Part shown: in pieces, positions 6,835 to 32,393 of the stretch
How positions within the stretch are numbered: the first letter of the stretch is position 1
How the letters are laid out: each line of letters starts with the position of its first letter
Virus record (IMG/VR): IMGVR_UViG_3300037670_000030
Span: 1-34,435 of that record
Length of the DNA stretch: 34,435 nucleotides
From: a virus
Strand: one strand, 5' to 3'
Notes under the pieces: model-generated
What the model saw: only the letters and a program-made list of their open reading frames with translations
Databases searched by the model: none
Told to the model about the DNA's origin: nothing
Translations under genes and position numbers: made by a program

Positions 6835-7124
6835 CAGTTCGCTCCGTTCGGAGTGCTGCCGCCGTTGCGGAGCCACGTGAGGAATCGCTGCGCTTCACCG
6901 TCAGCCAGCAGGTACACCATCGAGCCGCACTGCAGGCTGTAGATCGCCGCAGAACGGATGGTGTCGCTGGTTTGCGCCGAAACGGTCAGCGGCGCACCGC
7001 TGGCGAGGTGTACCAAGGCGAGATACAGCATGTCCCTCTGGTCGAACGAGCAGCGCAGGACGATGCCGGGCACCGACGTATCCAGCTCGATTACCGGGCG
7101 AAGGGAGGGAGTAACGGCGTCCAT
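6834..7124 (-). CDS. Hypothetical early phage protein
   Basis: A 96-residue protein with a compact alpha/beta look: IVLRCSFDQRDMLYLALVHLASGAPLTV, then a C-terminal ADGEAQRFLTWL helix. No membrane helix or known motif. Both ends overlap neighbours as TGATG, so it forms a tightly coupled trio with the genes on each side. Function unknown; early-operon location suggests an accessory replication or host-takeover role. Confidence 0.7.
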   Translation of the reverse strand: MDAVTPSLRPVIELDTSVPGIVLRCSFDQRDMLYLALVHLASGAPLTVSAQTSDTIRSAAIYSLQCGSMVYLLADGEAQRFLTWLRNGGSTPNGAN

Positions 7125-7753: not shown

Positions 7754-8131
7754 TTAGGGCGCAGCAGCTTGGGATGGTCGCGCGTCGCCGGCGCCCCCGG
7801 TATCGACCCTGGCGCCTTCGACCACTGCGATTGCATCCAGCATGTCCAGCTGCCTGTTGCCGTGTTCCATCTTCCATTGCATCTGCAGCAGCGCCCTGGT
7901 GTAGCCCGGCGTCGGTGGCAGTTCGCATGCCGGCGCATCAGGAATCCCGCTGGGGCTTGCGATGCTGGTCAGCTCGGAAATGCCTGCGTAGGTCGCTCCG
8001 CACAGTGGGTTCTGGCACACCCACACATCTGAACGCAGATGGCGGTGTTGCAGTCGGCTGGTGCGCTTGAGCAACGGCGTATCGCAGGCTTCGCAGGAGA
8101 ACGTTGCGCGGCTGCTGGTCGGAGCGCTCAT
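7754..8131 (-). CDS. ogr: Ogr/Delta-family late transcription activator
   Basis: A 125-residue protein with the zinc-binding pattern of the P2 Ogr/P4 Delta family: Cys13-x2-Cys16, a basic stretch, then Cys39-x4-Cys44 in VCQNPLCGATY. SELTSIASPSGIP follows, the same order as in Ogr. Family members are usually about 70-80 residues; the extra C-terminal 50 (MQWKMEHGNRQLDMLDAI onward) look like a helical extension of unknown role. It should bind dyads upstream of late promoters and recruit RNA polymerase. The start ATG 8131 overlaps the cox-like stop (ATGA). In P2 ogr follows D; here it is the second gene of the early operon, so late activation is tied to early transcription. Confidence 0.88.
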   Translation of the reverse strand: MSAPTSSRATFSCEACDTPLLKRTSRLQHRHLRSDVWVCQNPLCGATYAGISELTSIASPSGIPDAPACELPPTPGYTRALLQMQWKMEHGNRQLDMLDAIAVVEGARVDTGGAGDARPSQAAAP

Positions 8132-14859: not shown

Positions 14860-14885
14860 GCGAGCGGGCGCGTGGCGCCCGTCGC
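14860..14885 (-). other. Hairpin between FII and E
   Basis: On the minus strand, 7-bp stem CGGGCGC/GCGCCCG with CAC loop, extended by four more pairs across a mismatch. It lies after the FII stop and before the E ribosome site. There is no T run, so an RNA-stability or attenuation element is more likely than a terminator. Confidence 0.55.
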
Positions 14886-17428: not shown

Positions 17429-17950
17429 TCAGTAGATGTTGGTGATGACGCCGTCCGAGACCATTACGGTCTGGCCGGTAGCCGTGGTGAACGATCCGCT
17501 GGCGCCGGTTCCTGCGGAGACGTTGCCCGCTGCTGCGACGCTGCCGGTTGTCTCGATGCCGCCCGTGGCGATGACGGCCACCTTGCTGCCTTCCGGCAGC
17601 TTGATCTCGTAGCGGTGCAGGGTCTCGTTGTAGGAGAGCGTGCCGCCGTCGCCGTGCTGCACGATGTGCAGGTCCGCCTTATGGGCAGGCGCTGGGTATG
17701 CCTCAGAGTTGAGGCCGAGCAGGGCCACGGCGTTGGCGGTGTCGCCCTCGGGCGAAAGCAGAATCACCTGCTCGCCCTTGCTGGGCGCGGACCACGTGCG
17801 AGTGGTGCCGGCGCGCAGGGAGATCCACGGAATCCAGTTCGTAGTCAGTTCGCCGGAGGTAACGCGGCATCGCTCCGCGTCAACGTCAACTGCCGAAACG
17901 GTGCCGTTTCGGATCAGGTTGGAGATGAGGCGGGCGAGGTCGAGAGCCAT
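17429..17950 (-). CDS. V: Baseplate spike protein V
   Basis: A 173-residue homologue of P2 gpV, the membrane-piercing spike. It has an OB-like N-terminal domain (LISNLIRNGTVSAVDVDAERCRVTSGELTTNWIPWISLRAGTTRTWSAPSKGEQVILLSPEGD) and a repetitive beta-helix C-terminus (GGIETTGSVAAAGNVSAGTG). It ends TVMVSDGVITNIY and lacks the terminal HxH iron-binding tip seen in P2. It starts exactly 47 bases after a late activator site, with no leader needed. Confidence 0.93.
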   Translation of the reverse strand: MALDLARLISNLIRNGTVSAVDVDAERCRVTSGELTTNWIPWISLRAGTTRTWSAPSKGEQVILLSPEGDTANAVALLGLNSEAYPAPAHKADLHIVQHGDGGTLSYNETLHRYEIKLPEGSKVAVIATGGIETTGSVAAAGNVSAGTGASGSFTTATGQTVMVSDGVITNIY

Positions 17951-17956: not shown

Positions 17957-18015
17957 ATGCTGCTCGTGCGCGCGGGAGGACGCACGGCAGCTGGGGTGTA
18001 TGAGCGGGAATTACA
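17957..18015 (-). promoter_or_regulatory. Late promoter for V operon
   Basis: A perfect dyad TGTA-N11-TACA at 18015-17997 overlaps the stop of the Tfa-like gene. The -10-like CAGCAT is at 17962-17957. The dyad ends 47 bases before the V ATG, placing the predicted transcript start at the ATG itself. Confidence 0.75.
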
Positions 18016-18229
18016 GCGCAGCAGTGCGCGGTCGTGCAGCGGCAACGATCACCCAGCCACTGCCATTCCATCGGGGACAGCCGCTTGCTGGCACCGTGGC
18101 TGGTGGCGGCGTCTCGATGGCGCCGGCCGGTAGTAGCCAGCGACCTGGCTGCATCGGTGATTCATCGGCCTGCGTCGTTCCGATCAGCAGGCCGGCGGTG
18201 TCCACAAGATAGACGGTCTTGGTGGCCAT
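18011..18229 (-). CDS. Tail fibre assembly (Tfa)-like small protein
   Basis: A 72-residue protein: KTVYLVDTAGLLIGTTQADESP, then PAGAIETPPPATVP and PRWNGSGWVIVAA. This is the layout of the N-terminal part of tail fibre assembly chaperones (DUF4376/Tfa type), but it lacks their C-terminal half. Located directly after the fibre gene (2-base gap), it may help fold or attach the fibre. Family call is moderate. Confidence 0.6.
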   Translation of the reverse strand: MATKTVYLVDTAGLLIGTTQADESPMQPGRWLLPAGAIETPPPATVPASGCPRWNGSGWVIVAAARPRTAAL

Positions 18230-18231
18230 GG

Positions 18232-19683
18232 TCAGTATTTGATGCATGCCAGCAGGGCCACGTTCTTGGGCCGGGTTTCGCTGCCACCGGAAACGCTGGT
18301 CACGAAGTCGTGACTGTGTCTGCCATCGGTGGAGGTTTGCCACGCATAGTTGTCGTAGTCGATACCTCCGCTGGCACCGGCATTCCGGTTACCTGGGCGA
18401 TGAGGACTCATGCCATAGGGCGCAGCCGAGGTGTACTTGTTGCCCTCGCCGAAGGAGGAATCATGCGCATGGTCGCCGGCATCGCCGGTGCGGCCTGCGT
18501 GGTTGTGCGCTGCGAGCTGGTCGCCCTGGTTGCTGCCGATTGGACGCCCCGGATCCTGACCACGTCCATCGTCCAGGAAGCGAGGGAACATGCCGCGCAA
18601 GTCGGGCAGGAAGAACGCTCCTACGCCCGGTGACTGTCCGGCGGGGGTGTAGATGTCACCGATGGCCGCGTAGAGCTGCGGGTAGGCATCCCGGGCCACC
18701 TGTGCGCCGTTGGCCCTGAGCCAGCCTGTGGGCGCATTGGGACCGGCGAAGGTTGCCACCATGCCTGCAGGCGCCATCTGTCGCGCTTCGTCGCGGCTGA
18801 ATACACCAAGATTGGCGCGTGCCGCTGACTTGTCGGGCACGTCGTCCAGGTTGGCCGAGCGCTCCAGCGCGTGCGGCATGCTGCCGGCTGGCTCATTCTG
18901 GACTGCAATCAGGCGGGTTCCCTCCGGGTAGTCTTTGCCCAGCTGCAGTCGGGTAAGCAGATCTTCGTCGGGATTCCACTCGTCGGCACCAGTACCACGA
19001 CCGATGCGTATGCCATTGATGTACACCGCCAAGCCGGTGGTGGTGGTGATGCTCAGATCCACCGTGCGCTGACTGGCCACCAGCGTCTGCCGTTCTTCGA
19101 TGGTGTTCACCACGACCTGAATTCCATCCGCGCTTTGCCAGTCGGCATCGCCATCGGCGTTACTCTGCTTGGTCCACACCTGTCCGGTGGTACCTCCCGG
19201 GGCAACTTGGCCTGCGTCGATGGTGTTGAGCACCCACGCGCGCGAGGCCACGATGATGTTCGGGTCCAGCGTGATCTGCACATTGCCGGCATTGGCCACC
19301 GCGAAGGCGACGCGATAGATGCCGTCGCCGATGGCGCCCTCTGTGGCCAGCGGCTGGTAGACCTCTGGCGTATTGGCGATAGCGAACACGTCGTTGTCGC
19401 CGTCGACCACGGCGATCTCGCGGATGACGAAGCCGCCAGCGGTTGCCGGCAGAATGCCCTCGGCGTAGTAGATCAGCGGGTTCTCTGGATCCTGGTACAC
19501 CCGGTTGATGGGTGTACGGAAGCGTTCGCGCACCAGGCCGGTGTCACCCTCCTGCGGATCCACCGGGTTGCCGTTGCCATCCCCGAAGGCCATCTGAGCC
19601 ACGATCAGGGAGGCGCCCCCCAGGCGGGCGGCGTTGAGTTTCATCAGGCCCTTGCGGGTGTGGATGGTCCGATAGTTGGCCAT
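18232..19683 (-). CDS. Tail fibre protein H-like, collar domain at C-terminus
   Basis: A 483-residue tail fibre. The N-terminal 150 residues (MANYRTIHTRKGLMKLNAARLGG, then FRTPINRVYQDPENPLIYYAEGILP) match the P2 gpH-type baseplate anchor. A linker and a phage tail collar domain follow (PTGWLRANGAQVARDAYPQLYAAIG, then FFLPDLRGMFPRFLDDGRGQD). The tip is His/Gly-rich and ends RPKNVALLACIKY. It should bind a host receptor. ATG 19683 has GAGGGG upstream; the 11-base gap to the gene before it fits an operon. Confidence 0.88.
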   Translation of the reverse strand: MANYRTIHTRKGLMKLNAARLGGASLIVAQMAFGDGNGNPVDPQEGDTGLVRERFRTPINRVYQDPENPLIYYAEGILPATAGGFVIREIAVVDGDNDVFAIANTPEVYQPLATEGAIGDGIYRVAFAVANAGNVQITLDPNIIVASRAWVLNTIDAGQVAPGGTTGQVWTKQSNADGDADWQSADGIQVVVNTIEERQTLVASQRTVDLSITTTTGLAVYINGIRIGRGTGADEWNPDEDLLTRLQLGKDYPEGTRLIAVQNEPAGSMPHALERSANLDDVPDKSAARANLGVFSRDEARQMAPAGMVATFAGPNAPTGWLRANGAQVARDAYPQLYAAIGDIYTPAGQSPGVGAFFLPDLRGMFPRFLDDGRGQDPGRPIGSNQGDQLAAHNHAGRTGDAGDHAHDSSFGEGNKYTSAAPYGMSPHRPGNRNAGASGGIDYDNYAWQTSTDGRHSHDFVTSVSGGSETRPKNVALLACIKY

Positions 19684-19694
19684 GGCACGTCCCC

Positions 19695-20459
19695 TCAGCG
19701 CACGACGATGCCGCGATGGATCAGACGGCGCTGGAGCACTCCGTAGAGGCTTTCCAGACGCTCGGCGTCCAGGCTGGTATCCATGCACCCAAACATAGCC
19801 GCAGTGACGTCCACGGGCGTGTAGGTGGCGTTGCCGGAGAAGTACGCATTACCGAGGGCGATCCGATTCACCGACCCTTTCACGCGCGGATTGGCCAGCG
19901 GCGCCGTTACGACAGTGGATCCGGTCATGCGAGTGATAACGCGTTGTCCGTTGAGACTGACCAGCACCAGGATCCAATCGCCGTCCCGCAGGCCGGCCGG
20001 GATCGCGCCGTTGTCGGAGACCGGCAAGCTGTTGGGGTTTGCGCCGTAGGTGGCGATGCGCACTTCGCCGGCCGGATTGTTGGCCAATGCGAAGCCGCCG
20101 GCGGACAGCGGCGGCGAGATATTGCCCACCACGATGCTGTTCTTGCCGGTGGTATTGCGCCACTTGAACGCGACCCAGAACGTCATGGCATCCGGTTCAA
20201 GGATGTTGGTGACCAAGGCTTCGCCCAAGGCTTTCACTGTGACGCTGTTGTCGGCCCAAGTGTGGGTTTCTGCCTGAGCAGTCAGAGTGGAATCGCCAGA
20301 GATCGTTGCCAGCGAGACCTGGTCGGGGCCGAAGATCCAATCGCCGATGGCGCCAGCGATCAGGCTGGGCTCGTACGGGAACGCCGGCACTGCATCGACC
20401 ACGGGGGCGCCGGGAATGGTGATACCCAGGGGAGCTACGGGAAAGAGGACGCGGGCCAT
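19695..20459 (-). CDS. Lectin-like (LamG-fold) tail protein, putative
   Basis: A 254-residue protein. The beta-strand-rich body (MTFWVAFKWRNTTGKNSIVVGN, GEVRIATYG, GDWILVLVSLNGQRVITRMTGSTVV) and the end AMFGCMDTSLDAERLESLYGVLQRRL resemble concanavalin-like or LamG domains that decorate phage tails. I cannot name a family with certainty. It lies between the SGNH protein and the fibre and is co-transcribed with both. A sugar-binding role at the tail tip is inferred. Confidence 0.6.
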   Translation of the reverse strand: MARVLFPVAPLGITIPGAPVVDAVPAFPYEPSLIAGAIGDWIFGPDQVSLATISGDSTLTAQAETHTWADNSVTVKALGEALVTNILEPDAMTFWVAFKWRNTTGKNSIVVGNISPPLSAGGFALANNPAGEVRIATYGANPNSLPVSDNGAIPAGLRDGDWILVLVSLNGQRVITRMTGSTVVTAPLANPRVKGSVNRIALGNAYFSGNATYTPVDVTAAMFGCMDTSLDAERLESLYGVLQRRLIHRGIVVR

Positions 20460-20460
20460 A

Positions 20461-22590
20461 TCAGATCTCGAAGTTGGCGATGATGGGTTGAGCGAGGAAG
20501 CGGAACTCGGCCGGTCCGGCGTGATTGATGTTGCCGGCGGCGGCGAAGGATTCAGGAGCAACGCCCATGTAGCCGAGCTGTTCCTCATCGAAGAAGGGCG
20601 CGGTGGGCGAGAACGCAGCGCCGGTGGCCACGGCCACGGCATAAAGGGTTTCGTTGGTGTAGCGCCAGGCGGGCAGACTGCCGAAGCCGCCGTAACTGCT
20701 GGGACGAGGGACGCCGAGGATCTGAACCGTGGCGCCCAGCGACTGGAAGGTGCGCACAAGCTCGGTCATGTTGGTCACCGTGGCGCCATTGCCCAGCTCG
20801 TTCATGCCGAAGGCAAGGTTGACCAGCACTGGCTTGCTGGACTGTGCGACCGAATCCACCACGTACTGCAGGCGCGTTGGGTTCAGGCCGTTGGGACGAC
20901 CTGCATTCTCCCCGGTACCGCTGGTGGTTCCGCCGATGCCGTAGTTGAGGTACTCCACCTGTACACCGTAGGTGTGTTCCAGAAACGCCTTCAGCTGCCG
21001 ATTCCAGCCCAGGTCGCTGTGGATGGCACCGCCGCCGTCGCCGAAATCCAATGCAGGGATAGCGGCATAGGTATCGGCCGGCATCTGGATGAAGAACGAC
21101 TTCAGGTCACGGGCCGCAGTGTTCGGGGCGTTGTGCGGTGCGAAGCCACCCATGGCGGTGATCGAATCGCCGTATCCAACCAGCGTGATATCGCGCCGCT
21201 GTGCCAAGGCTGCGCGAATCGGCGCCAGTGCCTTGCGGTTGTGCTCACGCAGCGCGCTCATGTCGCGGCCGCGCTTGGTGATGCCCTGCCAGCGGGTCTT
21301 GCTGTACAGGCGCACCGTCTGGCCATAGCAGAACGCGGAGAACAGGGCGATCTTGCCAGTGGGTACAGAAGGCAGATACTCCTGCGGGTCAATGTTGCGT
21401 GCAGTTCCCCGAACGATCGACAGTGCACCGGTGATGGCATCGGCCACCACCAGGTCATAGCGCTGTGGAAGGCCCTTATAGGTGAGGGAGATCTCCCGCG
21501 TGCCACTGCCGACGACACCACGCAGCTTGCCGCCGGTATACCAGACATGGAAGTCGGCGCCTTCCGCCAACGGCGCGTCGTTGTGTCGGCAGGCCACATC
21601 GCTGATGAATCGGTAGGGCAGAGGTGCATTGTCGTTGACGTACCAGCGCTGTTCGCCGTTGGCCTTGAGGGTATAGGCGACGTTGTTGACCGGCACCGGG
21701 GCCGGTGGGGCCATGTCGAGAACACCGCTGATCGGGATGGACCCGGACGCGGTGCGCAGCGCGCCGCGCACAATGATGTGGGTACCGTCGATGGTGGCGG
21801 TCGCATCCGCATACGTGAGCGGATACTCTCCTTCGCCCAGAGTTCGCCCATCGACAATCAGTGCGCCTAGCGCGGGCTTGTAGCCCACGGCAATCTGCGT
21901 TACGCCATTGCTATCGGAAACGCCCAGCATGGGCACGATATCGCCGATCTCGGCCTGATGCAGATCTGCCAGGTGTTCGCCCGCGCGGATATCGGTCAGC
22001 ACCGTTCGACCGCGGTTGATGAGGTCGCCCGACGCCGGGTCATACTGCAACGGGATCTGGACTTCACCGGACTTGCTGGTGATGCCTACCAGCGGAACCA
22101 TTGGCGATTCCACCAGGTACAGCGATTCAACCAGCGGCTCACGCTCGGCCTTGGTAGGCAGCTGCTGCTTGATCGGCACCAGGTCCGTCCGATTGGCCTT
22201 TGCTGCCAATGTGTCCGGGCGCATCCACTCAAGCCCCGCCTCACGCTGGATGTACAGGCCACCGTTGGGAACGATCTGGTTGCCTGGCTTCACCGGGTCC
22301 ACATGTGAACCCGGATCGGTCTCCACGGGGATCTCGACCATCGCACCGAGCGGGCGGACAGTGGCCGCGACCGCCTCTGCCCAGGTCGCATAGCCAACGC
22401 GATCTGCGCCCTGCAGGGACTCCAGCAGTTGCACGCGCTCGGGAAGATCGGTCAGGCCATGCACGGCCCTGGCGAAAGTTGGCACCGGACCGCCCTCGGT
22501 TTCCACCGTCTCAGTTGCCGGTCCATGCACGATGAAATGGGCAATATCGCTGTCCTTGATGAACTGATCGACCTTGTTGCTGACGCTCAC
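20461..22590 (-). CDS. Tail protein with SGNH/GDSL hydrolase domain
   Basis: A 709-residue virion protein. The N-terminus (VSNKVDQFIKDSDIAHFIVHGP, then GGPVPTFARAVHGL) looks like a tail attachment region. The middle has several beta repeats. The C-terminal 250 residues form an SGNH esterase: block I GYGDSIT near residue 470, block II GIGG near 550, block III AFGMNELGN near 590, and block V INHAGPAEF near 693 (His). Such domains often de-acetylate surface sugars. A tailspike that modifies capsule or LPS is the likely role. It follows gene I by 3 bases. Confidence 0.82.
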   Translation of the reverse strand: MSVSNKVDQFIKDSDIAHFIVHGPATETVETEGGPVPTFARAVHGLTDLPERVQLLESLQGADRVGYATWAEAVAATVRPLGAMVEIPVETDPGSHVDPVKPGNQIVPNGGLYIQREAGLEWMRPDTLAAKANRTDLVPIKQQLPTKAEREPLVESLYLVESPMVPLVGITSKSGEVQIPLQYDPASGDLINRGRTVLTDIRAGEHLADLHQAEIGDIVPMLGVSDSNGVTQIAVGYKPALGALIVDGRTLGEGEYPLTYADATATIDGTHIIVRGALRTASGSIPISGVLDMAPPAPVPVNNVAYTLKANGEQRWYVNDNAPLPYRFISDVACRHNDAPLAEGADFHVWYTGGKLRGVVGSGTREISLTYKGLPQRYDLVVADAITGALSIVRGTARNIDPQEYLPSVPTGKIALFSAFCYGQTVRLYSKTRWQGITKRGRDMSALREHNRKALAPIRAALAQRRDITLVGYGDSITAMGGFAPHNAPNTAARDLKSFFIQMPADTYAAIPALDFGDGGGAIHSDLGWNRQLKAFLEHTYGVQVEYLNYGIGGTTSGTGENAGRPNGLNPTRLQYVVDSVAQSSKPVLVNLAFGMNELGNGATVTNMTELVRTFQSLGATVQILGVPRPSSYGGFGSLPAWRYTNETLYAVAVATGAAFSPTAPFFDEEQLGYMGVAPESFAAAGNINHAGPAEFRFLAQPIIANFEI

Positions 22591-22593
22591 GGC

Positions 22594-23241
22594 TTATTCC
22601 TTGGCCCTGTCGGGCATCGTGAAGTTGAGATGGGTGTGAAGCCGGTCCACGGAGTTGGCGACCTCCTGTTCGCCTTCCTCCAATGCAACCAACAGCAGCG
22701 AAATGTCCTGAAACCTCGCCTGCACCTGTCGATCTGTGCCAACTGAGGTCAGCCCACCGATGAACGGGTTGGCGTAGCTGCTCAGGCCTGGCACCAGCTC
22801 GGTCATGTGCGAGCGCAGGTTCTTGTTGTCTTCAATCGCCTGTAGGAGCCGTTGCAGATCCTTCTCTTGGAAAGGCGTGGAGACCGCGTTGACCAGGGCG
22901 CGGAACGTGTATGGAGCGCCCTGCGGCGTGCGCTGGTGCCATTCCTCGATCTCGACGGGTACGCCGATGGCATCGATCGCATCGAGTAGAGCGCCCACCG
23001 TGCCCTTGCGGCGATGGATCGTCAGAGATTGCTGCACCGTCCGCCGACGAACATAGGTCGGCCAATCGCTGCCCCAGGTGTCTACGCTGAACCACCACGC
23101 CAACCAGGGCAGCATGTCCTCTGGTGTGCGCATCGGATCCAGAGTGGACGCGAAGGGCACGGGGACTTCCGACAGACGGGTGGTGGCCTTTGCAACGGCC
23201 ACCTCCTGCGGAGTGGCATTCGGTGGCAGCAGGCTAGACAT
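22594..23241 (-). CDS. I: Tail protein I
   Basis: A 215-residue P2 gpI-type baseplate protein. The conserved start MSSLLPPNATPQEVAVAKATTRLSEVPVP precedes LPWLAWWFSVDTWGSDWPTYVRRRTVQQSLTIHRRKGTVGAL, the hallmark block of this family. It links the baseplate and fibres. It overlaps J by 8 bases. The C-terminal half (YANPFIGGLTSVGTDRQVQARF) is an acquired-looking region specific to this phage type. Confidence 0.93.
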   Translation of the reverse strand: MSSLLPPNATPQEVAVAKATTRLSEVPVPFASTLDPMRTPEDMLPWLAWWFSVDTWGSDWPTYVRRRTVQQSLTIHRRKGTVGALLDAIDAIGVPVEIEEWHQRTPQGAPYTFRALVNAVSTPFQEKDLQRLLQAIEDNKNLRSHMTELVPGLSSYANPFIGGLTSVGTDRQVQARFQDISLLLVALEEGEQEVANSVDRLHTHLNFTMPDRAKE

Positions 23242-24127
23242 CGCTCACCGTGCGGGTGGTGATGCGGATTCCGGTGCAGCGGCTGGCCGCGCCCACACCC
23301 ACCGCGATGTTCTCCGCAGGGCTGACCAAGGTGACGTCGACCACGCCTTCCTGATGCAGGGCACGATCCAAGGCGGAGCGGCTGACCAGGCGAGCCATTC
23401 GTGAATTCTTCTCGGCATACGTCGCCACCTCCTCGCGCGCAGCCTGCAGCACCACGGCGGGGTCTGGGCCGGGGTAGATATCGAGCACGGCCTCGATCTC
23501 GTATTCGATGACCGCTGCGCTCAGGACGGTTACAAAGTCGGTGAGTGGCCGCACGTCGATGTGGTTGACCGCAGTGGCGACGTTGGCAAGCAGGTCATCA
23601 GGGGCGGTACCGTCCCCCTCGCGGGAGAGGACGTAGACCGTCACATGCCCAGGCTGTGGGCTGTCGGCTGAGGCGTCCAACACCCGTGGATCTGCGGCCA
23701 GTGCGTGCGAGATGTACGCGCCGGCAGGGCCAGCGACAGAGAAGCCCTCCGGCGCCATTTGGATCCGGCGCCGGAATTCCGCATCTGACTCCATCACAGC
23801 CGGCGTTCCGAGCAACGGGTTGGCCTCAGTCACAACGCGCCGCTCGACGCCGAAGAACGCGCCAAGGTGATCGAGCATGGAATCTTCTGCGTATGCCAGC
23901 AGCACGGATTTGATGCCTTCGTTCACGCGCTGGCGCAGCAGCATCTCGCGATACGCGCCTACCTCGGCCAGCTTGTAGACCGGATCGGACTCGACCACAG
24001 CGCTGTAGGACGGATCCTGTGCGCGGTACATGTCCAGCCACTGGCCGAGCAGAACCTCGTAGTCGATCACTTCGACCGCGCTCGGAGCGGGCAGGCGGGA
24101 CAGGTCGACGGCAGAGAAAGTAGGCAT
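23234..24127 (-). CDS. J: Baseplate protein J
   Basis: A 297-residue baseplate wedge protein of the P2 gpJ/Mu gp47 family. Conserved blocks include MPTFSAVDLSRLPAPSAVEVIDYE, AYREMLLRQRVNEGIKSVLLAYAEDSMLDHLGAFFGVER and DPRVLDASADSPQPGHVTVYVLS. It is the first gene of the J-I-fibre operon. The start ATG has no Shine-Dalgarno sequence and falls exactly where the late promoter predicts transcription to begin. Confidence 0.93.
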   Translation of the reverse strand: MPTFSAVDLSRLPAPSAVEVIDYEVLLGQWLDMYRAQDPSYSAVVESDPVYKLAEVGAYREMLLRQRVNEGIKSVLLAYAEDSMLDHLGAFFGVERRVVTEANPLLGTPAVMESDAEFRRRIQMAPEGFSVAGPAGAYISHALAADPRVLDASADSPQPGHVTVYVLSREGDGTAPDDLLANVATAVNHIDVRPLTDFVTVLSAAVIEYEIEAVLDIYPGPDPAVVLQAAREEVATYAEKNSRMARLVSRSALDRALHQEGVVDVTLVSPAENIAVGVGAASRCTGIRITTRTVSDV

Positions 24128-24133
24128 GCCGTC

Positions 24134-24192
24134 ATATTCGCCAGCCTCGCGCGTGCGCGATAGAAGCGGGCGATGTACCGGTGTTCTCTACA
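24134..24192 (-). promoter_or_regulatory. Late promoter for J operon
   Basis: A TGTA-N11-TACA dyad at 24192-24174 overlaps the stop of S. The -10 hexamer GAATAT is at 24139-24134. The dyad ends 47 bases before the J ATG. Confidence 0.78.
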
Positions 24193-24640
24193 ACCCGGAC
24201 AGATGATTGAGCAGTGTGTCGATCACCCGCTGCTTGTCGCCATCGGCGAAACCCAGCAGCTCGCGGCGCTCGTAGCGCACGCGCGGACCACCGCGTCGCA
24301 CCTGGTCGACCAAGCCTTCCTGGTGGACGCGGGCAATGGCGGCGGCGCGGCGGATGAAGAACACTGAGGCTTCGTTGGCGTTCCCGCGTGCCTTGAGGTG
24401 CTTGGACTGTCGGAGGCGGGCGAACATCTTGCGGCGGCGGATCCGACCACCCTTCTGCCGCTTCTGGTTCTTGCGGCGGGCGTACTGGCTCCCGTCCGGG
24501 GCGCGCTGCTGCCCGATGCGCTCACTCTGGGCGCGCTGCAGATCCTGGGCGATGCGCCGAGCGAGCCGAGCGCGGCCGGAAGGCTCAAGCCGCTGCAGCA
24601 GCGGCCCGATCCAGCTTTCCAGTGAGGTCAGCTCATCCAC
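24188..24640 (-). CDS. S: Tail completion protein S
   Basis: A 150-residue homologue of P2 gpS. It has RLARRIAQDLQRAQSERIGQQRAPDGSQYARRKNQ, a basic RRRKMFARL region and the end GFADGDKQRVIDTLLNHLSGL. It helps finish tails for joining to heads. It overlaps R by 13 bases. Confidence 0.9.
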   Translation of the reverse strand: MDELTSLESWIGPLLQRLEPSGRARLARRIAQDLQRAQSERIGQQRAPDGSQYARRKNQKRQKGGRIRRRKMFARLRQSKHLKARGNANEASVFFIRRAAAIARVHQEGLVDQVRRGGPRVRYERRELLGFADGDKQRVIDTLLNHLSGL

Positions 24641-25041
24641 GTCGGCAGCGGCTCATCGACGGCGGAAGGGATCTCATTGCCCTGGTCGTCCGGGGCGACG
24701 ACCACGTTCTCGGTGAGCGGCAGTTTGATGTCCAGGTCGACCTTGTCGTCGGCCAAGATGTCCACCTCGAAGCGGATCTGTTCCTGCAGGCTTGGGCCAG
24801 CCAGCAGCGGGGACTGGTTCACCCTCACCCAATCCAGCAGTGCCAGCCACAGCCGGTTGGGGTCGCCGGCATAGTCGGTGATGATCAGGTTCATCGTGTA
24901 GCGCCACTCAAACGAGCGGGATTGCACGCAGGTGCACACGATGCTGCCGTTGTCGATGAAGGCGAGCAGGCGATCCTTGTCGGTGGCCAGCTCGGGGACT
25001 GCCGCCTCAATCGCAGCGCGCAGGGAGGCCGGCTTCTTCAT
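24628..25041 (-). CDS. R: Tail completion protein R
   Basis: A 137-residue homologue of P2 gpR: KKPASLRAAIEAAVPELATDKDRLLAFIDNG, FEWRYTMNLIITDYAGDPNRLWLALLDWVRVNQ. It acts late in tail completion. ATG 25041 overlaps the spanin stop (ATGA). Confidence 0.9.
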   Translation of the reverse strand: MKKPASLRAAIEAAVPELATDKDRLLAFIDNGSIVCTCVQSRSFEWRYTMNLIITDYAGDPNRLWLALLDWVRVNQSPLLAGPSLQEQIRFEVDILADDKVDLDIKLPLTENVVVAPDDQGNEIPSAVDEPLPTWMS

Positions 25042-25616
25042 GGCTCGACCTGCACCGCGCAGCCAGCGGCGACGGCCTGCCGGCGCGTGCTGGTCAGTTC
25101 GTCCTGGAGCCAGCCGATCCAGGCGTCGGCGTGGTCGGCGTCCTCAACAGTCGCTGCCGCGTCCGCTGCCCGAAGGTCGGCGGCTGCATCTTCGCCTCCG
25201 GCAAGGGCTGCAGCTGCACCGGGGTCGGATCCGGTCGCAGCACCACACTGCCACCACGGCTGCAGCTGCACGTCGCCACGACGCAGAGCAGCAGTAAGGT
25301 CATCACGGGCTTGTTTCGCATCATCCACCTTCTTGTCGTAGCGGCCATCGTTGTCGTTGCGGTCGTGGGCCAACGCCAGAGCCGCTGCGCGGGCCTTTGC
25401 GGCCGTCTCGGCGGTGGCCTTGGCCAACCCATCCAGCACGGCGGCATGGGCTTTCAGCGCGGCCTGGTGCGCTTCCTGTTCGGTGTTGTACTTGCCCTCC
25501 CACTTGGCAGCGCCTTGGCCATGCCAGAACCACGCCCAGCCGATCACCAGGGCCAGCGCAGCAGCCCAGCGGACCGTGATCAGGTACGGGCGGATCGGAT
25601 CGATGCTCAGGCCCAT
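25038..25616 (-). CDS. Inner-membrane spanin (Rz/LysB-like)
   Basis: A 192-residue protein with one N-terminal membrane helix (about residues 12-31, LITVRWAAALALVIGWAWFW) followed by a long periplasmic helix with charged repeats (EQEAHQAALKAHAAVLDGLAKATAETAAKARA). It is the expected shape of an Rz-type i-spanin that disrupts the outer membrane at lysis. A second reading frame inside it encodes the outer-membrane partner. ATG 25616 overlaps the endolysin stop (TGATG); a GTG one codon earlier is possible. Confidence 0.8.
   Translation of the reverse strand: MGLSIDPIRPYLITVRWAAALALVIGWAWFWHGQGAAKWEGKYNTEQEAHQAALKAHAAVLDGLAKATAETAAKARAAALALAHDRNDNDGRYDKKVDDAKQARDDLTAALRRGDVQLQPWWQCGAATGSDPGAAAALAGGEDAAADLRAADAAATVEDADHADAWIGWLQDELTSTRRQAVAAGCAVQVEP
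25094..25321 (-). CDS. Embedded outer-membrane spanin (Rz1/LysC-like)
   Basis: A 75-residue lipoprotein encoded entirely inside the i-spanin gene in another frame. It starts MRNKPVMTLLLLCVVATCSCS, a signal with a lipid-attachment Cys near residue 18. A Pro-rich mature part follows (LRPDPTPVQLQPLPEAK), typical of Rz1. AAGG precedes the ATG by six bases. The nested layout is as in lambda Rz/Rz1 and P2 lysB/lysC. Confidence 0.75.
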   Translation of the reverse strand: MRNKPVMTLLLLCVVATCSCSRGGSVVLRPDPTPVQLQPLPEAKMQPPTFGQRTRQRLLRTPTTPTPGSAGSRTN

Positions 25617-26287
25617 CACGCCGCTCCCAGCAGCGCCAGAGCGCGGTTGGTGCGGGCGATCCGGTCTTCCAGACCCTCGGGCTTGGCCTTGGAGCGCGGG
25701 TTGCCCAGGTTGATGGCACGGCTCAGGGCCAGCACGTCGCCGGCATCGGCCCAGCGGTTGAGGCCGTTGTCTTTCCAGTAGGCCGCAGCGGCACGCGCAC
25801 CGTTGACCGGATCCAGCAGCAGATCCGGGTTCTGCAGCAGCGGCAGGCCCAGCAGGACGCCCATGCGAGCGTAGCCGTCCTTGAGGGTGTTCTGGATCGG
25901 GCCGCGACCACGGTAGCGCCAGCCGTCGCCACTGGCGTCGTTGCCGTTGCCGCCGCGCCCGGCGTAGACGAAGTTGGCCAGCTTCTGCGGGTTGTTCAGG
26001 AAGCCCTTGGCGTGGGCCAGCTCTTCCGGCTCGATCTTGCGGTTGCCGTTGAGGTCGAAGCGACGGAACACCGCCACCACGCGCTCGGCGGTGCTGTAGC
26101 TGAGGTTTTCCTCGACACGGGTCAGGCTGACGCTTTCATGGCCGAGCTGGGCGAGGAAGTAGGCGACCTGGCGGCGCGTGGTGATGCCGAACTCGGCCAT
26201 GGCGGCGTTGAGCGGCTGGGTCCAGCGCTGCACGCGCGCCGTTGGCATCTGCATGGCGCGCGCGAGGATGTCATCGGTCAGGATCAC
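25616..26287 (-). CDS. Endolysin, glycoside hydrolase family 19
   Basis: A 223-residue muralytic enzyme. It contains the GH19 block VAYFLAQLGHESVSLTRVEENLSYS (candidate catalytic Glu51 and Glu59/60), then SGDGWRYRGRGPIQNT and PDLLLDPVNGARAAAAYWK, all typical of phage GH19 endolysins. Residues 78-89 form an EF-hand-like loop, D-x-N-x-N-x-x-I-x-x-x-E, where related enzymes have a plain helix. No signal peptide, so holin-dependent release is expected. The start is GTG 26287, overlapping the holin stop as GTGA. Confidence 0.9.
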   Translation of the reverse strand: MILTDDILARAMQMPTARVQRWTQPLNAAMAEFGITTRRQVAYFLAQLGHESVSLTRVEENLSYSTAERVVAVFRRFDLNGNRKIEPEELAHAKGFLNNPQKLANFVYAGRGGNGNDASGDGWRYRGRGPIQNTLKDGYARMGVLLGLPLLQNPDLLLDPVNGARAAAAYWKDNGLNRWADAGDVLALSRAINLGNPRSKAKPEGLEDRIARTNRALALLGAA

Positions 26288-26562
26288 GGATCGGTCCTCA
26301 GAATGCGGGCGACGTTGCCCTTGGACTGGAATGTCAGCAGCAACACCACCAGCAGCAGGCCCAGCTGCCAGGGGCTGACGTGTGCGCGGGGGCCGTACAG
26401 CAGGATCTGCAGTGCCTGCCCACCGGTGGAGGCGATCAGCACCCACGCCACCAGGGAGGCCCCTGGCCGGTGCGTAGCACCCGTGTGGGCGCGGTAGGTG
26501 ATCAGGCGCACGCAGATGGCCAAGCTGGCCACCAGGGCGAGGAAGGTCGTGATCTCAGCCAT
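26284..26562 (-). CDS. Three-helix holin-like membrane protein
   Basis: A 92-residue protein with three membrane segments: FLALVASLAICVRLI near residues 6-21, GASLVAWVLIASTGGQALQILLYG in the middle, and WQLGLLLVVLLLTFQ near the end. It resembles the three-TM phage holins of P2-like phages. ATG 26562 has GGAGAT upstream and overlaps the previous gene by 8 bases. One of the two membrane proteins here may be the holin and the other an antiholin. Confidence 0.75.
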   Translation of the reverse strand: MAEITTFLALVASLAICVRLITYRAHTGATHRPGASLVAWVLIASTGGQALQILLYGPRAHVSPWQLGLLLVVLLLTFQSKGNVARILRTDP

Positions 26563-26908
26563 TTCGATCTCCGCGGCGGAAGGATTTGAAGTCGATGCTC
26601 CCGCTGCCCTCGATCAGCCGCAGGGTGATCGTCACCACGCAGGCGGCCAGCAGGAAGGCCGCCAGCCCGGCCGACTCCAGGCCAAAGCGGCGCATGACGT
26701 CGGTGGCGCCCATGTAGCCGGGCACGACACTCACGGCCAGGTAGAACAGCCGCTTCCAGAGCAGCAGATCCTTGGCCGACACCACGAACAGGGTGGCGCC
26801 GGCGAAGGCGCCGATCAGTGCGTCGGGGTTGACGCCCGGCAGCAGCGAGGCCAGCCCGACGCTGGTGGCCAGCGCGAAGAGGGTGCCGGTGGAGGTTGGT
26901 TCGGTCAT
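26555..26908 (-). CDS. Putative holin, second membrane protein
   Basis: A 117-residue protein with three or four hydrophobic helices: TLFALATSVGLASLLPG, ALIGAFAGATLFVVSAKD, LFYLAVSVVPGYMGA and LAAFLLAACVVTITLRLI. A charged C-terminus follows (DFKSFRRGDRNG). It begins at ATG 26908, two bases after X. Position matches P2 Y (holin). Which of the pair forms the lysis pore cannot be read from sequence. Confidence 0.75.
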   Translation of the reverse strand: MTEPTSTGTLFALATSVGLASLLPGVNPDALIGAFAGATLFVVSAKDLLLWKRLFYLAVSVVPGYMGATDVMRRFGLESAGLAAFLLAACVVTITLRLIEGSGSIDFKSFRRGDRNG

Positions 26909-26910
26909 CG

Positions 26911-27120
26911 TCAGTCCCAGAGCTGGACCAGCGGGCGCGTGGCGGCGGCTGGGGTGGTGGTGTCGGGCAGCACCACAGAGGTGCCTTGGGGCAGGATCGG
27001 GCCGAGCGCGGCCAGACCGGGGTTGAGCGCCAGCGCCTGCTCCACGCACGCGGCAGTGGTGCCCAGGTAGCGGTAGCAGATGGCGTCCAGGGTGTCGCCT
27101 TGGGCAGCGATGACCAGCAT
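26911..27120 (-). CDS. X: Tail protein X
   Basis: A 69-residue LysM-like tail protein homologous to P2 gpX: IAAQGDTLDAICYRYLGTTAACVEQALALNPGLAALG, PQGTSVVLPD. In P2-like tails it contributes to the baseplate/spike region. TGATG overlap with L. Confidence 0.92.
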   Translation of the reverse strand: MLVIAAQGDTLDAICYRYLGTTAACVEQALALNPGLAALGPILPQGTSVVLPDTTTPAAATRPLVQLWD

Positions 27121-27584
27121 CAGATGAGGTCCACCGTGGTGCGGGGCAGGCCCTGCAGATCCCGCATGGCCCAGCGGTGATCGCGGCGAATCTCGCCGAT
27201 GGACGGGGTCAGGTCGTCGGCGCGCTGGTTGGCGCTGTCGGTGGCGTCGTAGGAGCGGTAGCGCTCGGTCAGCTCGGCGGCGGCATAGGTGGCCACCGCA
27301 CGGCGGTACAGCAGCACCAGGCGCGAGACACCGGAAATCGCATCGGCAGGCACATCGGCCAGCGATTCGTGGCCCTCGTCCATTTGGCGCTGTGCCCACG
27401 CGGCGAGCGCGGTGTTCACCGTGGTCACAGCGTTGATCAGGCTGCTGCGCAGGCGCGCCTCGGTGACCGTGCCCGTGATCCTCATGTCCTCTCGCACCTG
27501 CGACGGCGAGATGGACGGCCACCAGCTGCCCGACGTGATGTCGTCGCTGGGTGCGTTCTTGCCGGGGGCGATGAATGCAGACAT
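27120..27584 (-). CDS. L: Head completion protein L
   Basis: A 154-residue homologue of P2 gpL that stabilises filled heads and joins the neck. It has ITSGSWWPSISPSQVREDMRITGTVTEARLRSSLINAVTTVNTALAAW, VSRLVLLYRRAVATYAAAELTERYRSYDAT, and the end RWAMRDLQGLPRTTVDLI. A 100-base gap with a large hairpin separates it from M, which is otherwise unusual in this tightly packed operon. Confidence 0.92.
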   Translation of the reverse strand: MSAFIAPGKNAPSDDITSGSWWPSISPSQVREDMRITGTVTEARLRSSLINAVTTVNTALAAWAQRQMDEGHESLADVPADAISGVSRLVLLYRRAVATYAAAELTERYRSYDATDSANQRADDLTPSIGEIRRDHRWAMRDLQGLPRTTVDLI

Positions 27585-27600
27585 AAGGCCTCGAAATAGT

Positions 27601-27664
27601 CGCCGGTGGTCGGGGCGTCACCACAACGGGAGAGAGGTCGTTGTGGATCAGCCCCGAGCCGGCG
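27601..27664 (-). other. Three-tier hairpin between M and L
   Basis: In plus-strand coordinates, arms 27601-27606, 27611-27616 and 27621-27628 pair with 27659-27664, 27651-27656 and 27639-27646. All 20 pairs are perfect, with two internal loops and a 10-base apical loop. No T run follows. In the minus-strand RNA the internal loop UGAU/UGAC could form tandem G-A pairs. Confidence 0.8.
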
Positions 27665-27684
27665 GGGGTTGCGGGGACGCTCGG

Positions 27685-28509
27685 TTAGCTCTGCCCGGTG
27701 GCACCGTCATCTGCCGGCGGGGTGCCAGCACTGTCGGTACCGGTGTCCGGCGCGGGGCCGGTACCGGTTTCGCCGTTGCCGTCCGCTGCATTGCTCTGCG
27801 GGGCTTCGACGGTGGGCGGAGCGTGTTTCTTCAGGAGGCGGGCCGCGCGCTCCAGGTCTTTCTTCCCACCGCACGCTGTGTCCAACTCCAGGGCGCGGTT
27901 GAGGTTGGCCACGCACTTGACCAGCTGGTCAAGGGGCGGCGGGTTGTCATCGACGTCGTCGGCGCGGATCACGCTGCGGCCGGCGGCCAGGTAGAGTTTG
28001 GCGCGGACCTGGTCGGGCATGTCCTGCTCGGCGGTCAGCGCGGTGGTGGATTCCAGCACCGCCGCATCGAAGTCGGCACCTGCAACCTGGGCCCGCAGGG
28101 CAGCATCGGCCACTTCCTCTGCGATCAGGCAGCCGGTGGTGCGGGCGAAGCGGTCGGGCATGGCCAGGTTGTGGCGCAGAGCATAGGCGGCCAGTGGCAG
28201 CGCCCCAGCGAAGTCACCGGCATCGATGTGCCAGAGCATCAGGGTGGCAACAACCTCATCGTCGCCGCCGGCATCGGCCTGCAGCACGCCCTGAAGGTAC
28301 GGGGCGTAGTCGTCCAGGATCTCGGCCTTGAACTTGCCCTTGGCCTCGCCGGACTGGATCTGCTTGAGGCGCAGGCGATGGTCCTGCAGCTTCATCATGT
28401 GCAGCTCGTACTCGGACGCGTTGTCCACCGGCGCCGAACCCTGGCGCCGGGCCGATTCCTCAGCCGCGCGAACGCGGCTGAGGTGCATCTTGGCGGGACT
28501 GGCGGCCAT
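27685..28509 (-). CDS. M: Terminase small subunit M
   Basis: A 274-residue homologue of P2 gpM. The N-terminal half has the family pattern (SPAKMHLSRVRAAEESARRQG, MMKLQDHRLRLKQIQSGEAKGKFKAEILDDYAPYLQGVLQA, DDEVVATLMLWHIDAGDFAGALPLAAYALRHNLAMPDRF). The C-terminus adds a low-complexity Asp/Gly/Thr-rich tail not needed for the family. It pairs with P to cut cos DNA and start packaging. It follows N by 4 bases. Confidence 0.93.
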   Translation of the reverse strand: MAASPAKMHLSRVRAAEESARRQGSAPVDNASEYELHMMKLQDHRLRLKQIQSGEAKGKFKAEILDDYAPYLQGVLQADAGGDDEVVATLMLWHIDAGDFAGALPLAAYALRHNLAMPDRFARTTGCLIAEEVADAALRAQVAGADFDAAVLESTTALTAEQDMPDQVRAKLYLAAGRSVIRADDVDDNPPPLDQLVKCVANLNRALELDTACGGKKDLERAARLLKKHAPPTVEAPQSNAADGNGETGTGPAPDTGTDSAGTPPADDGATGQS

Positions 28510-28513
28510 GGGA

Positions 28514-29530
28514 TCAGGCTTCCTTGATCTCGATGTTCTCGACGACGCAGCCGAAGCCGTAGTCCTCGACCACGTAGGCGTCGTTGGACGACTCGAAGTT
28601 CTCGATGCGGTTCTTCTTCGGGTTCTCCACGACGTGGCGGCGGCGGCCGCCTTCCTGCCAGTAGATCGACAGGTTGGACAGCGAGGTGATCAGCAGAGTG
28701 CCGTCCGGGATGTACGGCACCTCTGCCACCTGCAGGCCGCCCAGGCGGCGCTGGGACAGGATGACGTCGGTGGCCAGCTTCTCGGTGGACGGCTGTTCAG
28801 CGTTGACCAGCGGGAAATACTTGTCGTGCAGCAGGCCACGGCCGACCACAGCGACCAGCCCCGGATCCTTGCGGTGCCACGGGTCGATCAAGTTGCTCAC
28901 CGCGTCGAAGACCAGCGCATCCAGGTTCTTGTAGTCGCCGCCAGCGCCGACCACCACCTTGCCCGATCCATCGACCACTTCGTTCAGGACGCGGGAAGCG
29001 GCGTTGCTGCGGTACTGCTGCAGCCAGCCGATATTGACGTCTTCCAGATTCGGGTGAGCGGTGCGGTCGGTGGTTGCAGCCGCGCTGGTGCCATGGAAGC
29101 CGATCATCAGGCGGTCCAGTGCCTGACGCTTGACGATGGCATCGCGCAGCTTGGCCTGGAAGTCGGGGAACTTCGCCCAGGCGTCAAGCAGCGCGTAGCG
29201 GATCGCGGTGTCGAAATCGGTCTGCTTGCACTCGTAGGTCTGGCTGTCCAGGCCGGAGACGTCGCGCGGGGAACGCTCGCCGTTTCCGGTGGTGTCGGTG
29301 CGGCCGGCGATGGTGCTGGAAACACCGATGCCAACCTTCTGACCCTTGAGTTCGTTGACGCCGATGATGTTGATTCGACCGAGGAAGTCGCTGGACTCCT
29401 GCATACGGGTTTCCAGCGTCTGCTGGATGGTCGGATCGACGTTGAACACCTGGCCGGCGTCGGCGACGCCATTGAGGGAAGCGATCTTGCTCAGGTACGC
29501 CGTGTACAGCAGGCGAGTTTCATTACGCAT
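28514..29530 (-). CDS. N: Major capsid protein N
   Basis: A 338-residue capsid precursor homologous to P2 gpN. Its start is MRNETRLLYTAYLSKIASLNGV. Further blocks are QQTLETRMQESSDFLGRINIIGVNELKGQKVGIG, DRLMIGFHGTSAAATTDR and GWLQQYRSN, with EVPYIPDGTLLITSLSNLSIYWQEGGRRRHVVENPKKNRIENFESSNDAYVVEDY at the end. P2 N is trimmed at its N-terminus by the O protease and the same can be expected here. Confidence 0.95.
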   Translation of the reverse strand: MRNETRLLYTAYLSKIASLNGVADAGQVFNVDPTIQQTLETRMQESSDFLGRINIIGVNELKGQKVGIGVSSTIAGRTDTTGNGERSPRDVSGLDSQTYECKQTDFDTAIRYALLDAWAKFPDFQAKLRDAIVKRQALDRLMIGFHGTSAAATTDRTAHPNLEDVNIGWLQQYRSNAASRVLNEVVDGSGKVVVGAGGDYKNLDALVFDAVSNLIDPWHRKDPGLVAVVGRGLLHDKYFPLVNAEQPSTEKLATDVILSQRRLGGLQVAEVPYIPDGTLLITSLSNLSIYWQEGGRRRHVVENPKKNRIENFESSNDAYVVEDYGFGCVVENIEIKEA

Positions 29531-29584
29531 GGATGATCTCCGAAAAGCGGGGATGTGGGCGGTGTGCGGTGGCGCTGCGGCGGG

Positions 29585-30466
29585 TCAGCAGTCGGTGACC
29601 GTGGATTTGTCGGACGGGCCGTTGACGACGGGGCGGAAGGCCTGCGTGGTCGAAGCGGTGCTCGACAGCTTCTGCTCCAGCGCCTTGAACTCGGCACGGC
29701 TTGCGTCCAGCTCCTTGCGCAGCGCGGCGAACTCCGTGGCATTGGCCTTGATCCCGTCAGCGATGCTGGTCAGCACCTCGGCGAAGCCCGCGAAGGCCTG
29801 AGCATCGGCACTGCCTTCCGGGGCCGGCGGCGTGACCGGTGCCGGCGGCGGGGTCGTCTTGCCGGTGAAGCGATCGATCAGGCCCGCGAGTCCCGAGAGC
29901 AACTTGCTGGTGGCATCGCCGGGGTCTGCGCTGACCTCTTCCAGCTCGATGCTGGACTCGCGCGCGGCGGTGAACAGGTTCTCCGCGTTGAGCTTGCGGT
30001 CATCGAACAGCTTGGCCTCGGGGTGCTTAGCCGCGAAGGACAGCTTTTCGGTGCCCAGGCTGGCCGGGCTGTCGGTGACGGCCAGGCCGACCAGATAGGC
30101 GCCGCCGGTCTTGGCGAAGTTGGGCGACACTTCGATGCTGGTGTAGATCTTCTGCTTGTCGTTGTTGACCATGCTCACCAGGGCATCGGTCGGTTCCAGC
30201 TGAGCGAACAGCGCCAGCTTCTTCTTGCCATCAATGTCGACCTCTTCGGCCTTCACCGCCACCACATCGCCGTAGGCCTTGAACGGGCTGTCCGGCAGGA
30301 TGCCGCGAATGTGTTCCAGGTTGATGCGCGCACCATACAGCGACGGGTTGTAGCTGCCGGCCATCTGCTGGATCCAGCCACGCTCAATCACACGGCCATC
30401 GGTGGTGTCGCCTTCCACGGCGACGCGGAAGAATTTGCTGCGGTACTTCTTCTTGGGATCCGACAT
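29585..30466 (-). CDS. O: Capsid scaffold/protease O
   Basis: A 293-residue scaffold with built-in protease. The protease part has FFRVAVEGDTTDGRVI, INLEHIRGILPD and YTSIEVSPNFAKTGGAYLVGLAVTDSPASLGTE. Counting from MSDPKKK, the catalytic triad known for P2 O aligns to Asp23, His52 and Ser110. A Pro-rich linker precedes a C-terminal coiled-coil scaffold (ATEFAALRKELDASRAEFKALEQKL). The start is ATG 30466 with AGAGGA upstream; an in-frame ATG at 30520 is less well supported. Confidence 0.93.
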   Translation of the reverse strand: MSDPKKKYRSKFFRVAVEGDTTDGRVIERGWIQQMAGSYNPSLYGARINLEHIRGILPDSPFKAYGDVVAVKAEEVDIDGKKKLALFAQLEPTDALVSMVNNDKQKIYTSIEVSPNFAKTGGAYLVGLAVTDSPASLGTEKLSFAAKHPEAKLFDDRKLNAENLFTAARESSIELEEVSADPGDATSKLLSGLAGLIDRFTGKTTPPPAPVTPPAPEGSADAQAFAGFAEVLTSIADGIKANATEFAALRKELDASRAEFKALEQKLSSTASTTQAFRPVVNGPSDKSTVTDC

Positions 30467-30518
30467 GGTGTCCTCTGCTGATTTTGGCCGTGTGCGCGGA
30501 TCGCGCTTCAACAGGTCC

Positions 30519-30617
30519 ATGGTCGGCAGAGCGACAAACAGCAGCAACGCAACCGAGTTGTAAAACTCGGTGCTACGTCATTGATTTCTGTATGAATCGG
30601 TCGTCGGACGCGACCCT
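30519..30617. promoter_or_regulatory. Divergent late promoters for P and O
   Basis: The dyad TGTA-N11-TACG (30559-30577) ends 47 bases before the P GTG. The P -10 is GACCCT at 30612-30617. Read in the other direction, the same dyad gives a -10 GACCAT at 30524-30519 and a start near 30512, leaving O a 46-base leader with its own ribosome site. A perfect 8-4-8 palindrome (30552-30571) overlaps the left half of the dyad. Confidence 0.7.
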
Positions 30618-30623
30618 AGTGCG

Positions 30624-32393
30624 GTGAACGACGTCGCCGCCCAACTCCAAACCGACAGCCGCAGACAGGCCAAATTCCTGTACTGGATGGGCTGGCGTGT
30701 CACCGAGATCGCAGAGGCGACCGGCGAGAAAGAGAAAACCATACACAGCTGGAAGGCGCGTGACGAGTGGGACCGCGCCGACAACGTCGAACGTATCGGT
30801 GGCGCGCTTGAACAGCGCCTGGTGCAGCTGATCCTCAAAGACGGCAAGACCGGCGGCGACTTCAAGGAAATCGATCTCCTGCACCGCCAGCTGGAACGAC
30901 AGGCGCGGATCCAGCGCTACCAGGGCGGCGGCACAGAGACCGATCTGAATCCGGCTGTGGCCAATCGCAATGCCGGCACGAAGAAGAAGGAACGCCGGAA
31001 TGAGTTCAGTGAGGCAGAGGTCGAGCAGCTGACCACCGCGTTTGTCGATGGCTGCTTTGACTACCAGCTGGACTGGTACAAGGCCAGCAACCTACGCACC
31101 CGCGCCATCCTCAAGTCGCGCCAGATCGGCGCCACCTACTACTTCGCCCGCGAGGCACTGATCGATGCGATCAAGACGGGCCGTAACCAGATCTTCCTGA
31201 GCGCGTCCAAGGCGCAGGCGTTCCTGTTCCGTGGGTACATGCAAGCCTTCGTGCGCGAGACGCTGGACAAGGATCTCAAGGGCGGCGACAGCATCGTGCT
31301 GGCCAACGGCGCCGAGCTGTTCTTCCTGGGCACCAACGCCCGCACCGCGCAGGGCTACCACGGCAACTTCTACTTCGATGAGTTCTTCTGGACGCATGGG
31401 TTCGATGAGCTGAACAAGGTGGCCAGCGGCATGGCCATGCACAAGAAGTGGCGCAAGACCTATTTCAGCACGCCGTCCACGATGGCCCATCAGGCGTACA
31501 GCTTCTGGACCGGCGAGCGCCGCAACCGGGGCAAGCCGGCCGATAAGCGCATCAAGATCGACACCTCGCACGATGCATTGGCGGGCGGTCACCTTGGGCA
31601 GGACAAGCTGTGGCGGCAGATTGTGACCATCCTCGACGCCGAGCGGCGCGGCTGCGATCTGTTCGACATCGATGAGCTGCGCGAGGAATACAGCGCGGAC
31701 GCCTTCGAGAACCTGCTGATGTGCGGGTTCGTGGATGACAGCGCGAGTGTGTTCCCCCTGAGCCTGCTGCAGACATGCGGCGTCGACAGCTACGTCGATT
31801 GGGCGGGCGACTATCGCCCCTTCGCCCAGCGGCCCTATGGCGACCGACCGGTGTGGGTGGGTTACGACCCGGCAGAGACGGGCGACAGCGCCGGCTTGGT
31901 CGTGGTGGCGCCGCCAAGCGAGCAGGGCGGCAAGTTCCGCGTGCTGGAACGCTTCCAGTTCAAGGGCAATGACTTCGCCGCTCAGGCCGAGATCATCCGC
32001 AAGATCACCCAGCGATATTGGGTCACCTATATCGGCATCGATACGACCGGCATGGGCACCGGCGTGGCCCAGATCGTGAAAACCTTCTTCCCCAACCTGG
32101 TCACTTTCAGCTACTCGCCCGAGGTGAAGGCCAAGCTGGTGTTGAAGGCCTACGACGTGATCAGCAATGGCCGGTTGGAATACGACGCCGGCATGCTCGA
32201 CCTGACGCGCTCGATCATGGCCATCAAGAAGACCCTGACCAAGAGTCAGCGGCAGGTCACCTATACCGCAGGGCGGAGCGAAGAGACGGGCCACGCCGAT
32301 CTGGCGTGGGCGCTGTTCCATGCCCTGCAAAACGAACCGCTTGAACGCCCGCATACCTCGGCGCGGCGCAGCCGATTGGAGATCAACGTATGA
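30624..32393 (+). CDS. P: Terminase large subunit P (ATPase/nuclease)
   Basis: A 589-residue packaging motor. The N-terminus has a small HTH-like region (MGWRVTEIAEATGEKEKTIHSWKARDEW). The ATPase part has the variant Walker A KSRQIGATYYFAREAL and Walker B GNFYFDEFFW. The C-terminal nuclease fold shows WVGYDPAETGDSAGLVVV, IGIDTTGMGTGV and GHADLAWALFHAL. The start is GTG 30624; no Shine-Dalgarno sequence precedes it, in line with a predicted leaderless transcript. It is divergent from O and overlaps Q by ATGA. Confidence 0.95.
   Translation: MNDVAAQLQTDSRRQAKFLYWMGWRVTEIAEATGEKEKTIHSWKARDEWDRADNVERIGGALEQRLVQLILKDGKTGGDFKEIDLLHRQLERQARIQRYQGGGTETDLNPAVANRNAGTKKKERRNEFSEAEVEQLTTAFVDGCFDYQLDWYKASNLRTRAILKSRQIGATYYFAREALIDAIKTGRNQIFLSASKAQAFLFRGYMQAFVRETLDKDLKGGDSIVLANGAELFFLGTNARTAQGYHGNFYFDEFFWTHGFDELNKVASGMAMHKKWRKTYFSTPSTMAHQAYSFWTGERRNRGKPADKRIKIDTSHDALAGGHLGQDKLWRQIVTILDAERRGCDLFDIDELREEYSADAFENLLMCGFVDDSASVFPLSLLQTCGVDSYVDWAGDYRPFAQRPYGDRPVWVGYDPAETGDSAGLVVVAPPSEQGGKFRVLERFQFKGNDFAAQAEIIRKITQRYWVTYIGIDTTGMGTGVAQIVKTFFPNLVTFSYSPEVKAKLVLKAYDVISNGRLEYDAGMLDLTRSIMAIKKTLTKSQRQVTYTAGRSEETGHADLAWALFHALQNEPLERPHTSARRSRLEINV

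Follow-up and report, generated by a model that had tools for sequence, protein, structure and literature searches.

Predicted Ogr-type late promoters and leaderless P, V, and J messages in a P2-like phage

The late promoters of phage P2 (Pp, Po, Pv, and Pf) are activated by Ogr and carry a dyad centered near −55 to −57 together with a weak −10 element of the form nAnnnT; a single dyad serves the divergent P/O pair. The same features are found in the IMG/VR virus record IMGVR_UViG_3300037670_000030, a stretch of 34,435 bases (hereafter the window) whose genes are of the P2 type: they include those for the terminase (P), portal (Q), and scaffold (O), the baseplate genes V, W, and J, a tail sheath gene, and a gene for a zinc-finger protein resembling Ogr. 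The core of the P2 dyad is TTGT..ACAA-like, whereas that of the window is TGTA-N11-TACA. In P2, V, W, J, I, H, and G belong to a single operon, whereas in the window J and V head separate operons. The gene order of the window is that of phage Smp131, with the operons similarly split into P/Q, O.., J.., and V.. (PMC3931495). The available passages of the Smp131 paper predict four Ogr-type late-promoter sites, and they give neither a spacing nor a leaderless prediction. In the Ralstonia phages RSY1 and RSA1, four Ogr-type dyads are reported at about −50 to −90 relative to the initiation codons (PMC5694545), and the passages available from that source do not tie them to a transcript start or to leaderless translation.

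In Deinococcus-Thermus (PMC12340547) and in mycobacteria (PMC4633059), leaderless mRNAs are described whose −10 element borders the open reading frame (ORF). The start codons in the window are adjoined by a −10 element in the same manner, but those cases are host genes, whereas the promoters of the window have a distant activator dyad and form a single regulated phage regulon. Ogr-type late promoters and leaderless mRNAs are each already known, and the P2 record already implies a leaderless V, since it annotates the V transcript start at base 10308, where the V ATG begins. In the window, we consider it highly probable, from the arrangement of promoter elements and start codons, that Ogr-type late promoters would produce leaderless P, V, and (in this lineage) J messages and a leadered O message.

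The geometry is the same at the three operons. Counted from the dyad end, the start codon begins 47 bases on for V, J, and P each, and the hexamers at −12 to −7 of the three start codons all follow nAnnnT (Table 1); positions, distances, and hexamers are exactly those of the original prediction. From the dyad of P, read in the opposite direction, O has a predicted start at 30512, a 46-base leader, and a Shine–Dalgarno (SD)-like GAGGA, again as proposed. The dyad center falls at −56 from the predicted starts of P, J, V, and O, in agreement with the claimed closeness to the −55 of P2 Ogr sites. The late operons P, O, V, and others are headed by dyads, as are Ogr-dependent promoters of the P2 type. 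Dyads with at most one mismatch number eight in the window, against 1.96 expected, and eight was reached in none of 100 shuffles. Two further dyads are judged to be chance occurrences: an exact TGTA-N11-TACA at 7009–7027, inside a coding region, has neither hexamer nor start codon, and a 7/8 dyad at 19007–19025 with the hexamer CACCGT has no ORF behind it.

The geometry was calibrated on the transcript starts annotated in the P2 record. At −12 to −7 of these starts, P2 has TAGCCT (P), GAAACT (O), and GAAAAT (F), all of which carry an A in second and a T in sixth position; the V hexamer, CAATCT, is one base farther out. Measured from the annotated starts, the P2 dyad centers are at −56/−57 for O, V, and F and at about −55 for P. 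Because the P2 hexamers align on annotated starts, the leaderless prediction rests on recorded start positions beyond a consensus alone. The calibration supports predicted starts for P, J, and V within about 2 bases of their start codons.

The ribosome sites were assessed from the energy with which the 16S tail (anti-SD) pairs to the 20 bases ahead of the start. For P, V, and J, the pairing is no better than random, and it is clearly stronger for O (P vs. O, p = 1.6e-6; V vs. O, p = 6e-13). In relatives, mismatches follow codon position downstream from the predicted P and V starts and not upstream of them.

The spacing is largely conserved in relatives. An unbiased scan (dyad with at least 7/8 matches, A at +36, T at +40) was run on the window, Smp131, Dobby, and 20 further genomes of related phages. 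It returned 86 dyad-plus-hexamer sites at the exact spacing, against 3–10 with the A/T requirement shifted by 1–6 bases, and with few exceptions these sites precede P, O, J, V, or FI. A start codon stands 47 or 48 bases past the dyad in 20 of 20 cases for P and 20 of 20 for V. For O, the start is at 77–104 except in two cases (54 and 61) with in-frame alternatives at 88–90; for FI it is at 76–84, and four GTG calls at 41 have an in-frame alternative at 77. Among non-redundant relatives, the spacing is 47–48 in 37/38 for P and 47–49 in 39/40 for V; Burkholderia and Acidovorax phages also have P and V at 47–49. In a set of 134 promoters (P, V, O, and J), conservation is 95% for the A of the hexamer and 95% for its T. 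The invariant 47-base spacing of the original prediction thus stands for P and V, where 47–48 is nearly always found, and fails for J. The same division applies to transcription from the start codon itself: for P and V the prediction is supported by the P2-calibrated geometry and by the relatives, and leaderlessness would there be a long-conserved rule, whereas for J it extends to this phage and its closest relatives.

Table 1. Late genes of the window and the predicted elements of their promoters
Feature	Coordinates	Strand	Sequence or support
V, baseplate assembly protein	17429..17950	-	Pfam Phage_base_V; ATG at 17950
V-promoter dyad TGTA-N11-TACA, predicted Ogr-type activator site	17997..18015	-	TGTAATTCCCGCTCATACA on V strand; dyad scan
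V-promoter -10-like hexamer	17957..17962	-	CAGCAT (nAnnnT)
J, baseplate wedge protein	23234..24127	-	Pfam Baseplate_J; ATG at 24127
J-promoter dyad	24174..24192	-	TGTAGAGAACACCGGTACA on J strand; dyad scan
J-promoter -10-like hexamer	24134..24139	-	GAATAT
P, terminase large subunit	30624..32393	+	Pfam Terminase_6N/6C/5; GTG at 30624
Dyad common to the divergent P (+) and O (-) promoters	30559..30577	.	TGTAAAACTCGGTGCTACG on P strand
P-promoter -10-like hexamer	30612..30617	+	GACCCT
O, capsid scaffold/protease	29585..30466	-	Pfam Phage_GPO; ATG at 30466
O-promoter -10-like hexamer	30519..30524	-	GACCAT; dyad distance as for P
Ogr/Delta-like zinc-finger activator	7754..8131	-	CX2CX22CX4C motif; Pfam Ogr_Delta E 6.7e-5 (under gathering score); PHROG 603 E 6.8e-18

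Several observations weigh against the leaderless reading. For J, only the window and its nearest relatives (3/18 non-redundant) have a spacing of 47; the other 15, of the Smp131 type, have 64–70 (68 bases ahead of J in Smp131 itself), and leaders of about 17–23 bases, without a ribosome site, are implied there. The P gene of P2, unlike the predicted P of the window, has an SD within a 23-base leader: in P2 and one close relative, the hexamer TAGCCT is retained, with about 20 extra bases that include the SD. Leaderlessness is therefore not obligatory for P or for J. The P gene starts with GTG here and in 12/37 non-redundant sequences, and leaderless GUG is poorly translated in E. coli; with such a start, the yield of P may be low or its translation may depend on some other help. 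The codon bias of P is weak over codons 2–7 (its first six codons). V and J could also be read from longer read-through transcripts. Finally, the relatives share descent and are not independent trials, so that the counts of conserved spacings overstate significance.

How the start codons would be reached can also be explained otherwise. The polymerase might start 1–4 bases earlier and leave very short leaders, with a translation that is leaderless-like and not strictly leaderless. The range of 47 to 49 among relatives and the variation of P2 starts by 1–2 bases relative to the dyad are compatible with this, but the hexamer moves together with the dyad and the annotated P2 V start is the ATG itself, and we regard such leaders as unlikely. 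That V and J are translated chiefly from read-through of upstream operons, with little added by a promoter at the start codon, is improbable. The late operons from O to D all run in one direction, which makes read-through possible, and V and J would lack an SD in either case; against this, a full dyad and hexamer are kept at a fixed distance upstream of V in the scanned genomes, and P, being divergent, has no late operon behind it.

A wrong assignment of the start codons, with a real leader and a downstream in-frame start, appears very improbable. The next in-frame codons are available at +110 (ATG, P) and +104 (GTG, J) from the dyad end, but codon-position bias is already present upstream of them, and the Terminase_5 match of P already starts at residue 11, ahead of the next ATG. 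A check of the ORFs of the window gave no in-frame ATG, GTG, or TTG preceding the assigned starts of P, J, and V, which leaves no alternative on that side. The window itself offers only three operons, and three equal spacings could on their own be a coincidence; the comparative data refute this, with the excess of sites at the exact spacing over shifted ones and with 76 of the 78 non-redundant P and V starts at 47–49, and we give the idea practically no credence.

The reading with leaderless P, V, and J would operate as follows. A dimer of the activator, likely Ogr, would bind the TGTA-N11-TACA dyad centered near −56 and recruit the host RNA polymerase to the degenerate −10 element (nAnnnT) beginning 35 bases past the dyad end. 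Transcription would start 7 bases after the hexamer, the choice of the start being fixed by the distance from the dyad. This +1 would fall on the opening base of the start codon in P and V and, within this lineage, in J; many relatives would have it one or two bases earlier. Because the predicted +1 coincides with the start codon, the mRNA would have neither leader nor SD and would need initiation at the 5′ end, of the 70S type. The same dyad in the reverse direction would give O an ordinary leader. The zinc-finger protein at 7754–8131 is probably the activator that binds the dyads.

A further element, TTGC/TGT/TGC, is conserved at +12 to +15 past the dyad end, or about −35 to −32 (on the O strand, 30544–30547 in the window). 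Its conservation reaches 97% (T), 97% (T), and 100% (G) in O, and 92% (T) and 90% (G) in V. A −35-like contact is possible.

Beyond the close relatives, a survey of 77 non-redundant V genes drew on reference phages and on named bacterial genomes, among them enterics, Salinicola, Stenotrophomonas, and sphingomonads. A hexamer nAnnnT lies 6 or 7 bases before the V ATG in 60/77, with 0–4 at other gaps; the exceptions include intra-operon V genes with a clear SD. In P of the Vibrio/K139 type, TAnnnT is exactly 6 bases before the ATG in 22/33, downstream from a AATTCGGAT-type dyad, which suggests that the activator was swapped beneath a conserved leaderless P start. The Vibrio-type P promoters retain TATGAT at that place and a dyad AATTCGGAT-N-ATCCGAATT, unlike the dyad of the window. 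In five sphingomonad V promoters, a GCATTTG-N-CAAATGC-type dyad replaces TGTA-N11-TACA. By eye, the P genes of enteric SEN8, Klebsiella, Yersinia, and ENT90 look leaderless; since P2 and its close relative are leadered, P has switched between the two states at least once. More tentatively, and in our view less likely than not, leaderless initiation of P and V could be an old selected trait of the whole family, one that survives replacement of the dyad and gives translational control late through 5′-end-competent ribosomes.

In five J promoters with a 17–23-base leader, Smp131 among them, an inverted repeat often spans the predicted start. As a special element of Smp131-type phages it was rejected, its folding relative to shuffles being no stronger than in V promoters. 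A scan of genome contigs with the J of the window alone gave no relative; an alignment found one. A pattern scan of viral contigs across the whole collection gave mostly chance matches at the chosen specificity and is not taken as evidence.

Published annotations differ in places from this geometry. On NC_023588, the promoter coordinates printed for Smp131 (PMC3931495) show no conserved dyad; the sites are at 4641–4659, 10877–10895, and 14862–14880. Of the published coordinates, those of PJ′ and PV′ are placed on the initial codons of J and V. In Smp131 V, the frame from the predicted ATG is apparently shifted with respect to the annotated V, which is not so in a close relative. For Burkholderia phages, the ribosome sites listed include GGTAGccttgctgcATG for KS5 P, AACATGGAggcATG for KS14 V, and GGGTACAcataggcgggcGTG for KS14 P (PMC3091744). 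The listed sites of KS5 P and KS14 V contain the −10 hexamers, and that of KS14 P contains the dyad end. By the 47-base rule, the annotated P starts of KS14 and Smp131 are 36 bases too early.

In the literature searched, which excluded the classic P2 late-promoter papers, no report of leaderless late messages in P2-like phages was found; leaderless P and J, and the conservation of leaderless P and V across the family, appear unreported in it. A textbook promoter family would gain a base-exact rule, the dyad plus 47 giving the start codon of P or V, by which start codons and wrong ribosome sites in published phage annotations are corrected. The late promoters would also provide regulated leaderless messages beyond the few known cases. 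They raise the question of why the terminase and baseplate operons would be leaderless and the scaffold and sheath operons, under the same activator, leadered.
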